Positions 6,534 through 30,991 of a stretch of 50,550 bases of DNA are shown here, one piece after another. Under the pieces are notes generated by a model that was not told the origin of the DNA, did not search any database, and was given only the letters and a program-made list of their open reading frames with translations. Every line of letters begins with the position of its first letter. Positions within the stretch are counted from its first letter, which is position 1. The DNA comes from Bacteroidota bacterium (GTDB taxonomy: Bacteria > Bacteroidota > Bacteroidia > Chitinophagales > Chitinophagaceae). The stretch spans positions 1-50,550 of the forward strand of contig JABDFN010000003.1 in NCBI GenBank assembly GCA_013286485.1. The letters run 5' to 3'. Position numbers and translations under genes: made by a program.

Positions 6534-6913
6534 GCGACTACAGGTCGGGTTATCGCCTTGTTTCTACATGGAGGAAAGTCCGGGCAGCAAAGAGCATCGC
6601 ACCACCTAACGGGTGGGGTTCCGTTTACTCCGAACATTCGGAGCGGGATACAGACAGTGCCACAGAAAATAACCGTTTCTGCGTAAGCGGAAATAAGGGT
6701 GAAAAAGTAGGGTAAGAGCCTACAGCGTATAATGGAAACATGATACGGGGGTAAACCTTGCGAGCTGAAATGTCAAATAAGCAAACGTCTGAGGGTAGCT
6801 CGTCCGAGTTTGTGGGTTGACAGACAGAGGTGTTGTGAGAGCAGCATCCCAGATAAATGATAACTACCCGCGCAAAACGGGGAACAGAATCCGGCTTATA
6901 GGCTTGTGGTTGT
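6534..6913 (+). ncRNA. rnpB: RNase P RNA (bacterial type A)
   Basis: Contains GGAGGAAAGTCCGGGC, CACCTAACGGGTGG, ACAGACAGTGCCACAGAAAA, AAGGGTGAAA, GGTAAGAGCCTACAGC, GGTAAACC, GATAAATGATAACTACCC and ACAGAATCCGGCTTAT; P1 strands 6535-6546 and 6901-6912 pair over 12 bp with GU. Confidence 0.96.
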
Positions 6914-14711: not shown

Positions 14712-15209
14712 TTAATCAAACTTAATGTAGTTCTGTATAAGCAGATCCCAGTCGTTTTTGTTTAATATACAGGTGGTATTCTCTTGCAGCATACAATAAG
14801 CAGTAAGGATAGTATTATTTCTTTCTATTAATATACCGGCAATGTTTTCAGCGGGTTTTCCTATTACTTCGGCATGTTTCAGCCGCATTAAAAAAGATTC
14901 TTTGTTCTCATCAGGATAGTCATCATATTCAATGTTCTCTATAAAAAAAACATATCCCGCATCTTCTTTAAATACTTTTATATAATCACCTGTATGTGCT
15001 TTTCTATGTAATTCCCTGGCATGATGGTCTGATAAAGTAAACCGGATGTTTGTAATGCCGCAAATAGTAGCCCAATTACTTACATCAAATAACTTATCCT
15101 TAGATTCTATAAATAGATCTTCTGCTTCTTCAATAAATTCCGCATCGTAAGAATAATGCCATTCATTCGACATTTCACTTGATGCAATAGGTTCCGAATG
15201 TTCGGCCAT
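14712..15209 (-). CDS. hypothetical protein
   Basis: 165 aa ORF with no recognised domain; the N-terminus encodes the CCGAACATTCGG palindrome. Confidence 0.55.
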   Translation of the reverse strand: MAEHSEPIASSEMSNEWHYSYDAEFIEEAEDLFIESKDKLFDVSNWATICGITNIRFTLSDHHARELHRKAHTGDYIKVFKEDAGYVFFIENIEYDDYPDENKESFLMRLKHAEVIGKPAENIAGILIERNNTILTAYCMLQENTTCILNKNDWDLLIQNYIKFD

Positions 15210-28091: not shown

Positions 28092-28117
28092 TTCCGATCC
28101 GAACGTTCGGATCGGAA
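28092..28117. repeat. 26-bp perfect palindrome with CCGAACGTTCGG core
   Basis: TTCCGATCCGAAC|GTTCGGATCGGAA. Confidence 0.9.
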
Positions 28118-28379: not shown

Positions 28380-28411
28380 TTTGTCAAATTAATTGGATAT
28401 TCCTACCTTTG
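28380..28411 (+). promoter_or_regulatory. Bacteroidetes sigma promoter upstream of the Y-family polymerase
   Basis: TTTG (28380-28383), 20 nt spacer, TACCTTTG (28404-28411); matches TTTG/TAnnTTTG consensus. Confidence 0.7.
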
Positions 28412-28418
28412 TGGAGGA

Positions 28419-29768
28419 ATGGAGCAGGTAAGCACCACGGAAAGGCCTAAAAAACAGGAATACAGGGCCAATAGCGCCGATGCAAAGCACGGTTCGGTTG
28501 TCATGTACCTTGACATGAACAGCTATTTTGCCAGTTGCGAGCAGCAACTAAATCCAGAGCTGAGGAATAAACCTGTGGGGGTAATAACCTACGATAGCCC
28601 CAATGCCTGCATTATTGCCCCAAGCATGGAGGCCAAGAAATATGGTGTAAAAACAGGCATGCGCCTGGGAGAGGGCAGGCAGTTGTGCCCGCATATTATA
28701 CCTGTTACTACCAATCCTTACCAGTACCGCCGCATACATGTAAAGATCATGGAAATACTGCATAACTATTGCGATGATGTAATAGCACGCAGTATAGATG
28801 AGGCGGTGATGAACATGAGTAGCTATAAACTGGTGTATAAGGATATGCAGGAAGTGGGCAGAAAAATAAAAGCAGACATCAGCCGCGAATACGACTGGCT
28901 AAAATGCAGCATAGGCATTGCACCCAATTCTTTTCTCGCCAAGCTGGCCACCGAAATACAAAAGCCTGACGGGCTGGTAGAAATAACACCTGAGAATATA
29001 GATGAGAAACTAAGCAAGCTGCAATTGCAGGACCTGCCGGGCATAGCCAGCCGCAATGAAAGAAGATTGCAACTATGCGGTATTACTTCTCCCTTGCAAA
29101 TGCGGCATACCAGCGAGGCACTGCTGAGAAAGGCATTTGGCGGTGTGGTAGGCAATTTCTGGTATCGCCGTTTGAATTTTGGTGAGATAGACCTGTATGC
29201 ACATGAGAACAGAAATATGAGTGCTATGCGCACGGTGAGCCGCGAACAGAGAGAAAACAAAGCCACACTGGAAGCCATGCTGGTAGCACTCTGCACCAAA
29301 CTGGAACAGCGTATGGTGAAGCAGGATATTTTTTGCAGGGACGCCAGTTTTTTTATCCGCTACCGCGACAGCACAGGCTGGGATACCAAAGTGCGCTTTC
29401 AGCAACCCGTGCAGGATGGATTGGAACTGCGCCGCTACCTGGTGCAGCAGATAGAAATGTTTGAACGCAGCAGGAACACGACCATGTTCAATAAGAACAC
29501 ACAAAGCCTGGGCGTGGCTATTGGCAGTTTTATGAGCGGCGGAAACCTGCAGTATAGTTTGTTTGACAACCGTATGAAACAAGATGTGGTGCGCAAAGCG
29601 ATGTATAATATAAAAGATAAGTACGGCAGAAATATAGTGCGCAAGGGCGTGGAAATGCTTGACCCTTATGTAATGAAAGACGCTATAGGCTTCGGTTCTG
29701 TAAAAGATATGGGTAATGGAATAGATGGGGAGATCGTTAATAAATATATGCTGGAGGAAGACTTTTGA
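28419..29768 (+). CDS. Y-family (DinB/UmuC-like) DNA polymerase
   Basis: 449 aa; VMYLDMNSYFASCEQQLNPELRNKPVGV, ARSIDEAVMNMSSY, SIGIAPNSFLAKLATEIQKPDGLVEI, LPGIASRNERRLQLCGI; putative clamp motif QYSLFDN. Confidence 0.93.
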   Translation: MEQVSTTERPKKQEYRANSADAKHGSVVMYLDMNSYFASCEQQLNPELRNKPVGVITYDSPNACIIAPSMEAKKYGVKTGMRLGEGRQLCPHIIPVTTNPYQYRRIHVKIMEILHNYCDDVIARSIDEAVMNMSSYKLVYKDMQEVGRKIKADISREYDWLKCSIGIAPNSFLAKLATEIQKPDGLVEITPENIDEKLSKLQLQDLPGIASRNERRLQLCGITSPLQMRHTSEALLRKAFGGVVGNFWYRRLNFGEIDLYAHENRNMSAMRTVSREQRENKATLEAMLVALCTKLEQRMVKQDIFCRDASFFIRYRDSTGWDTKVRFQQPVQDGLELRRYLVQQIEMFERSRNTTMFNKNTQSLGVAIGSFMSGGNLQYSLFDNRMKQDVVRKAMYNIKDKYGRNIVRKGVEMLDPYVMKDAIGFGSVKDMGNGIDGEIVNKYMLEEDF

Positions 29769-29807
29769 CAATGTGCAAATTGAATGTGATGGAATAAAAA
29801 TGGTTCC

Positions 29808-29886
29808 CGCAGATTTGTCGCAGACCCACAACATAAGTATCTGCGTTTTTTTCTGCGCTTATCAGCGAGTCCCGAACATTCGGGAC
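29808..29886. repeat. intergenic element of CGCAGA/TCTGCG sub-repeats ending in GTCCCGAACATTCGGGAC palindrome
   Basis: CGCAGAT 29808, CGCAGAC 29819, ATCTGCG 29839, TCTGCG 29852, then GTCCCGAA CA TTCGGGAC 29869-29886. Confidence 0.65.
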
Positions 29887-29917
29887 AGCAGGAGAAAATA
29901 AATAATTAGAGAACAAT

Positions 29918-30991
29918 ATGATAAACCAAAAAGCATACGACCGGTTTGAAAAGGGCAGGGGGGCGCAGTACAATCCGAAGAATAAATTTCTGAAGGGAGA
30001 GTATGTGCAAGAGCACGTAGAGGCCATAGACGACTGGGAACAGGAAGAACGACAGACCGAATATATTTACGATGAAAGCAAAACGCTGGTAAATACAGTC
30101 ACCAGCCCTGATGTAGGTATGATGTTCTCTGCCAATCCTTACCAGGGTTGTGAGCATGGTTGTATTTATTGTTATGCACGCAACAGCCATGAGTATTGGG
30201 GATACAGTGCGGGCGTAGATTTTGAGAGCAGGATAGTAGTGAAGAAAAACGCACCGGCTTTGCTGAAAAAGTTTTTCGAGAATAAGAATTGGGAGCCTGC
30301 CTGTATATCGCTCAGCGGTAATACAGATTGCTACCAGCCGATAGAAAGAAAAATGCGCATTACACGCAAGCTGCTGGAAATATGCCTTGATTTTCGCAAC
30401 CCTGTAGGCATACTTACTAAAAATGCTTTAGTGCTTCGCGACCTGGATGTGCTGCAGGAGTTGAACAAGCTGAATCTGGTAAGAGTGTTTAGTTCTATCA
30501 CTTCTTTAGATGAAGATATGAGAAGAGTAATGGAACCGAGAACAGCATCTTACAGATCGAGGTTGAAAGTGGTGGAAACATTGTCTAAGAACGGCATACC
30601 TACCGGCATTATGAACGCACCATTAATACCCGGCCTGAATGACATGCATATGCACGATGTGCTGAAGGCCGCCAGTGAAGCGGGTGCCAAATGGGCGGGC
30701 TATACAGTGGTGAGGCTCAACGGGGCTATTGGCGGTATATTTCATGACTGGTTGCATAAAGCATTTCCCGACCGTGCAGAAAAAGTATGGAACCAGGTAT
30801 GCGCCTGCCACGAAGGTACGGTGAACGACAGCCGCTGGGGTAACAGAATAACAGGCGATGGAAAATTTGCTGAGCTGATAAGAACACAGTTTCATATCTA
30901 CTGCAAAAAATTTCACCTGAATGAAACACATATGGAAATGAACACCAAAGATTTCAGGCGAATAAGAAATGGTCAGTTGCCTCTCTTCTGA
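29918..30991 (+). CDS. PA0069 family radical SAM protein (SplB-like)
   Basis: 357 aa; FSANPYQGCEHGCIYCYARNSHEYWGYSAGVDFESRIVVKKNAP (CxxxCxxC), LSGNTDCYQPIER, AYTVVRLNG-like; C-terminus NGQLPLF. Confidence 0.93.
   Translation: MINQKAYDRFEKGRGAQYNPKNKFLKGEYVQEHVEAIDDWEQEERQTEYIYDESKTLVNTVTSPDVGMMFSANPYQGCEHGCIYCYARNSHEYWGYSAGVDFESRIVVKKNAPALLKKFFENKNWEPACISLSGNTDCYQPIERKMRITRKLLEICLDFRNPVGILTKNALVLRDLDVLQELNKLNLVRVFSSITSLDEDMRRVMEPRTASYRSRLKVVETLSKNGIPTGIMNAPLIPGLNDMHMHDVLKAASEAGAKWAGYTVVRLNGAIGGIFHDWLHKAFPDRAEKVWNQVCACHEGTVNDSRWGNRITGDGKFAELIRTQFHIYCKKFHLNETHMEMNTKDFRRIRNGQLPLF

Follow-up and report, generated by a model that had tools for sequence, protein, structure and literature searches.

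A conserved clamp-type tail and SOS-type control in the PA0069 family of radical SAM proteins, neighbours of a bypass polymerase in some lineages

The closest described relatives of the two genes treated here, a Y-family DNA polymerase and a radical SAM protein of the PA0069 family, have been met in quite different settings. Spore photoproduct lyase, the SplB of B. subtilis, works through a radical relay that requires a cysteine (C141) and two tyrosines, Y97/Y99 (PMC5368176). Genes labelled SplB or COG1533, which is how the PA0069 family (NF033668) appears in the SOS literature, have been placed under SOS control before: LexA regulation was known earlier in alpha- and betaproteobacteria (PMC3323433), and in Bacteroidetes, where divergent SOS palindromes have been reported, both dinB and SplB/COG1533 are named in each of two SOS regulons, whose published operators are CTAA-N5-TTAG and GGA-N5-TCC (PMC8565304). 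A paper in Biol Direct 2013 proposes that mutagenic polymerase systems and SplB-like radical SAM proteins are linked (PMC3765255), and in archaea, NreB-SplB pairs set a SplB-like enzyme beside the gene for a protein with a PCNA motif (PMC4929162).

How does our locus compare? It lies in a stretch of 50,550 nucleotides (the window) from a Bacteroidota assembly of 1.93 Mb that is 60% complete, and its radical SAM protein, whose closest match is a Taibaiella MAG protein at 89%, scores 481.7 bits on NCBIfam NF033668 (rSAM_PA0069; cut-off 360), covering positions 1-348 of 348 and thus reaching the last residue of the model. Membership in the sister family Rv2578c (NF038135) was ruled out (198 bits; cut-off 430). 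With B. subtilis SplB (4fhc), its best structural match, the protein shares the radical SAM cluster and an adjacent tyrosine, but identity is 17%, and the PA0069 family is marked by its QLxLF tail and by SOS control. Unlike the ImuB-C/SRAP SOS operons, the window has no ImuB-C protein, and the accessible part of that source (PMC3765255) describes neither a DinB-like pairing nor a clamp tail; in the archaeal pairs, it is Nre and not the SplB-like enzyme that carries the PIP motif. What appears to be new, judged by sequence comparison, is the conserved clamp-type tail of the PA0069 family and its sister, whereas SOS control had been reported before, as had the SplB label. Within the open-licence literature, which did not cover the founding 2001 motif paper, we found no earlier report of a clamp motif in this family, no published function for it, and no paper linking PA0069 by that name with radical SAM or SOS.

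We think it probable that the PA0069-family protein is a damage-induced enzyme resembling spore photoproduct lyase, recruited to the clamp by its C-terminal peptide and, in the clade of the window, paired with a polymerase. That is, DNA damage would induce the radical SAM protein; its C-terminal Q-phi-x-LF peptide would dock in the hydrophobic pocket of DnaN, the replication clamp, and so bring the enzyme to DNA; and SAM would be cleaved at the C78/C82/C85 cluster, setting off radical chemistry on a damaged base, or on a related nucleic-acid lesion, at stalled forks or behind them. In the window clade, one SOS-type promoter would drive both the radical SAM gene and a DinB-like polymerase with a clamp motif of its own, and with both proteins clamp-tagged under one promoter, bypass and chemical repair would both be available at the same clamp. 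The sequences give good support for calling the protein a clamp-tethered SOS repair enzyme; to call the two genes a module would be apt only in some lineages. Our analysis shows the family membership, the fold, the conserved motif, SOS-type operators in several phyla and the two genes side by side on one strand in four related genomes; from these we infer that the protein binds DnaN, that the two genes share a transcript, that the substrate is DNA, that repair is by direct reversal and not by excision, and that the two proteins are coordinated. More tentatively, and leaning slightly against it, we consider that the whole PA0069/Rv2578c superfamily might be a widespread SOS-induced, clamp-bound radical enzyme that acts at stalled forks, chemically undoing some lesion different from the spore photoproduct.

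Why should this matter? A large enzyme family has been labelled "SplB-like" without a known substrate, and a conserved clamp-type tail together with SOS operators in several phyla would indicate where and when the enzyme acts, narrowing the search for a substrate to those DNA lesions that the replisome encounters in ordinary vegetative bacteria. If we are right, a radical SAM enzyme would join the clients of the bacterial clamp; on the wider reading for the superfamily, direct-reversal repair would operate at the replisome in non-spore-forming bacteria, and the gene would sometimes be encoded with the very bypass polymerase with which the enzyme would compete or cooperate.

Table 1. Positions of the features discussed, in window coordinates
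Feature	Position	Strand	Basis
Bacteroidota-type promoter TTTG-N20-TACCTTTG (-33/-7), directly before polymerase start codon	28380..28411	+	Read from sequence
Tandem operator-like sites TGTCAA-N5-TTGGAT / TTCCTA-N5-GTGGAG, 18 bp apart, overlapping promoter	28382..28416	+	PSSM
Y-family polymerase of 449 aa, DinB/Pol IV-like	28419..29768	+	PF00817, PF11799
Predicted internal clamp motif of polymerase, QYSLF at aa 378-382	29550..29564	+	Alignment of relatives
Intergenic stretch, 149 bp, with palindrome GTCCCGAACATTCGGGAC at 29869-29886	29769..29917	+	
PA0069-family radical SAM protein, 357 aa, spore-photoproduct-lyase-like fold	29918..30991	+	NF033668
Radical SAM cluster motif C78-x3-C82-x2-C85, Y84 beside it	30149..30172	+	Invariant, 78/78
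QLPLF, aa 353-357, clamp-binding-type C-terminal pentapeptide (predicted), disordered tail	30974..30988	+	

The polymerase and its place beside the radical SAM gene

Both ORFs lie at the coordinates first given for them, and the polymerase is of a familiar kind. Its ORF matches Pfam IMS (PF00817; E 4.2e-41) and IMS_C (PF11799), and the catalytic residues, D32 and S125-I-D127-E128, are present in invariant alignment columns. Domains, catalytic residues and a clamp motif behind the little finger are all held in common with DinB/Pol IV and UmuC, from which the window polymerase differs by a clade-specific C-terminal extension. Because Q378, L381 and F382 are invariant in eight aligned DinB/UmuC-type relatives (three sister polymerases, two DinB and two UmuC among them), QYSLF reads as the usual clamp motif of Y-family polymerases. 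The preliminary description of this locus had placed the motif, as QYSLFDN, near the C-terminus; it lies instead directly behind the little-finger domain, 67 residues short of the end, a distance taken up by the extension. The N-termini of the sister polymerases vary.

To see how often the two genes keep company, one needs loci from elsewhere. Our 158 homologs come from two sources: an even draw of 198 Bacteroidota genomes supplied 78 loci, and GTDB contigs supplied a further 80 named ones. Three sister genomes (L037, L038 and L109) carry an orthologous polymerase directly upstream of the radical SAM gene on the same strand; in Chitinophagaceae, a LigT-like gene usually precedes the radical SAM gene, opposite a divergent umuDC (11 loci; genes read from sequence); and a third arrangement joins DinB, SRAP and DnaE to it. 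The three fall on separate branches of the tree. Yet in the even draw, a Y-family polymerase lies within 7 kb at 3 of the 78 loci, all from one family, and although such a polymerase is encoded in 73 of the 78 genomes that have the radical SAM gene (compared with 95 of the 120 that do not), none was detectable in the other five. Since most loci have no polymerase neighbour and five genomes have no Y-family polymerase, the pairing is recurrent but neither general nor obligatory. The proposal that the two genes form a clamp module thus survives in part: adjacency recurs beyond the window genome, in the three sisters and in the other arrangements, and it does not extend to the family at large.

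These counts bear most directly on the strongest competing account, in which the terminal QLxLF is a real clamp dock, but the polymerase and the radical SAM protein are separate members of the SOS regulon that have come to be adjacent in a few lineages. We find ourselves evenly divided about it. The 3 of 78 loci, the five genomes that do without the polymerase, and the Flavobacteriaceae, whose radical SAM loci sit in stable housekeeping neighbourhoods with neighbours that are not repair genes, all speak for it; at least three arrangements with translesion genes (DinB-like operon, divergent umuDC and DinB-SRAP-DnaE), on separate branches, and a chance expectation of only about 0.5 polymerase neighbours in 78 loci speak against it.

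Some details of these neighbourhoods deserve a record of their own, with the proviso that LigT, SRAP, DnaE and umuDC were identified by reading the sequences and are not HMM calls. The LigT-like gene, of the 2'-5' RNA ligase/cyclic phosphodiesterase type, sits between the radical SAM gene and the divergent umuDC (for example, L046 5150-5773 and L055 5179-5835). In two MAGs, a compact operon runs DinB, SRAP (HMCES-like), DnaE and, last, the PA0069 radical SAM gene (L093 786-7068; L113 3-7032), and the one in L113 is headed by an XRE-S24 regulator; such an operon is possibly a complete SOS mutagenesis and repair cassette. Phage and viral collections yielded only distant or truncated relatives.

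The C-terminal peptide

The preliminary description had noted that the radical SAM protein ends exactly in QLPLF, and so it does, with the stop codon directly after. Is such an ending more than an accident? A strict class, Q[LIMYFVA]x[LM][FL], is found at the C-terminus of 110 of the 158 homologs (70%) but of only 4 of 1,380 neighbouring ORFs (0.3%), and a wider class, Qxx[LMI][FLW], in 138 (87%) as against 26 (1.9%), numbers that do not count independent events because the homologs share ancestry. In most homologs, the motif ends at the stop, and otherwise it ends up to 5 residues earlier. With a frequency so far above the neighbouring-ORF background, we take it that the terminal motif of the family is not a product of chance. 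Position by position, in an alignment of 78 sequences, Q353 is kept in 69 of 78, L356 in 72 of 78 and F357 in 72 of 77 (3.6, 3.8 and 3.9 bits, respectively), the third residue of the motif is variable, and so are most of the 30 residues ahead of it. Several of the homologs that do not match are evident variants (QLKLGL, QLGFF and QFTLDL), and in a minority the leading Q is missing or position 2 is G, as in QGKLF, either of which may mean weaker clamp binding.

The motif is not confined to Bacteroidota. It is terminal in proteins from Alphaproteobacteria and Aeromonas and nearly terminal in those from Legionella; members of the actinobacterial Rv2578c sister family (L208, L209 and L207) end in QLRLL, QLTLL or LQESLF; and a relative from Gemmatimonadota has QLSLGI as its last residues. 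The motif is missing from six radical SAM relatives that are further removed, a mobile-pair protein B among them. The expectation that the terminal Q-L-x-L-F would prove conserved among PA0069 homologs has therefore held, in the family and its sister alike, and so has the likeness to the clamp-binding pentapeptide that had been pointed out: the pattern of substitutions, with L, M or I at position 2, anything at position 3, L at position 4 and F or L at position 5, fits the published consensus Q-phi-x-[L/M][F/L] (PMC13254535).

One might still imagine that the conserved Q..LF does something other than bind the clamp, such as pack on the core of the enzyme or meet some other partner, and it is fair to say that a conserved C-terminal peptide does not by itself name its partner and that some members end in QGKLF or have no Q. 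We consider this unlikely. The tail is predicted to be disordered, the block containing the last seven residues of the AlphaFold model averaging pLDDT 50; the substitutions, down to the LGL and LGI endings, are those of the published clamp motif (PMC13254535); and the motif coincides with SOS control.

SOS operators, fold and target

When palindromic dyads in the DNA ahead of the radical SAM gene were enumerated blind, with other genes of the same loci for comparison, CTAA-N5-TTAG (22 occurrences for an expected 3.4) and GGA-N5-TCC (21 for an expected 7.7) came out among the top dyads, the rest of which were AT-only, and these two are precisely the published Bacteroidetes SOS operators (PMC8565304). 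In many Bacteroidota promoters, the operator stands in tandem, its copies 17-20 bp apart, about 40 and about 60 bp ahead of the aligned start. Loci from other phyla, all taken from plasmid-collection records, show the LexA boxes of their own: an exact GTTC-N7-GTTC in six of eight alphaproteobacterial loci, where about 0.016 would be expected per locus; a CTGT-N8-ACAG box, CTGTATATATAAACAG, 37 bp before the aligned start in Aeromonas; and GAAC-N4-GTTC upstream in two of three actinomycete loci of the Rv2578c family. From these predicted sites, we conclude that the PA0069-family gene is under SOS control in many lineages.

Could the enzyme nonetheless modify tRNA, a protein or a cofactor, with SOS control there for another reason? 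The radical SAM superfamily is highly diverse, and MoaA- and SkfB-type models match our protein weakly. We rate this no higher than a role for the tail apart from the clamp, in view of the SOS operators in several phyla, the clamp-type tail, the SPL-like fold and neighbours that belong to DNA repair (SRAP, DnaE and umuDC, as well as PolX and UDG in Pseudomonadota).

An enzyme that works on DNA at the clamp remains our preferred reading, and the fold gives some idea of its chemistry. A fold search was needed because phmmer with the single protein against PDB gave nothing at E 0.01 and a profile gave only weak matches, to SPL, NifB and SkfB. The AlphaFold model is confident (pLDDT 87.3), and its best three matches in PDB are spore photoproduct lyases (4fhc/4rh0/4fhf; E 3e-8 to 2e-7, TM ~0.53), with 4fhc on top at E 3.4e-8, which bears out the kinship with SplB suggested at the outset. 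The relay is another matter. No cysteine outside C78/C82/C85 is invariant in the family alignment, C138 is proline in 9/9 Pseudomonadota sequences, and position 86 alternates between Y and F beside an invariant Y84; judged by sequence alignment rather than by structure superposition, then, the H-donor cysteine and the tyrosine pair of the lyase (the C141/Y99 relay) are not kept across the family, and so the protein, for all its resemblance to spore photoproduct lyase, probably has a different substrate. That it is a true lyase acting on 5-thyminyl-5,6-dihydrothymine, as its best fold match and the equivalence of CxxxCxxC and Y84 to the lyase Y-C-Y motif might invite one to think, is the least likely reading of all, given the relay residues just described, the failure of spore photoproduct lyase models to recognise the window protein, and sampled hosts that are not endospore formers.

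Promoter and intergenic DNA in the window

Bacteroidota promoters follow the consensus TTTG/TAnnTTTG, and the one before the polymerase gene is overlapped by tandem operator-like sites. These sites were scored with a PSSM built from the promoters of three XRE-S24 (SOS-type) regulators, which supply its only three training sites. The window polymerase promoter ranks first of 103 regions (shuffle p < 1/2000), that of L037 comes next, and those of L038 and L109 score weakly, so that two of the four promoters of the clade are strongly supported; a mismatch count for the TTCCAA-N5-TTGGAA-type palindrome is suggestive only. We regard 28382-28416 as a putative divergent, clade-specific SOS operator, a view drawn from those three training sites and in keeping with the divergent palindromes described in PMC8565304. 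The recA promoter of the window fits the PSSM poorly (rank 16 of 103), neither published Bacteroidetes SOS motif shows an excess in the window or a site at the polymerase or radical SAM gene, a scan for sigma-70 promoters showed no enrichment, and the window's own 60%-complete genome yielded no S24 regulator.

In their own promoters, the regulators themselves (L203, L204 and L205, from sister genomes) have TTCCAA-N5-TTGGAA-like sites in tandem, at a spacing of 18 bp. These putative auto-operators differ from both published Bacteroidetes SOS motifs, with which they have the N5 spacing in common, and are possibly a third class of SOS operator. The predicted -7 element ends 7 bp ahead of the polymerase ATG (28419), for which reason the polymerase transcript may have almost no leader, or translation may in fact begin further downstream, for example at M29.

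Between the two genes, the sister genomes L037, L038 and L109 have only tens of bp, whereas the 149-bp gap of the window leaves room for separate transcription. Two intergenic features may be added. The window contains four copies of a palindromic repeat with the core CCGAACNTTCGG (6630-6641, 15194-15205, 28099-28110 and 29872-29883), giving eight strand matches where 0.23 are expected; two copies flank the polymerase gene, and the repeat is possibly an intergenic family. The sequence at 29800-29905, before the radical SAM gene, is structured (fold z -3.5) and rich in CTGCG/T-tract/CAGCGA words, and because similar words (CTGCGGTTTTTTCAGCGAG) precede recA in the same genome (L200 ~1260-1330), it would seem to be a dispersed intergenic element.
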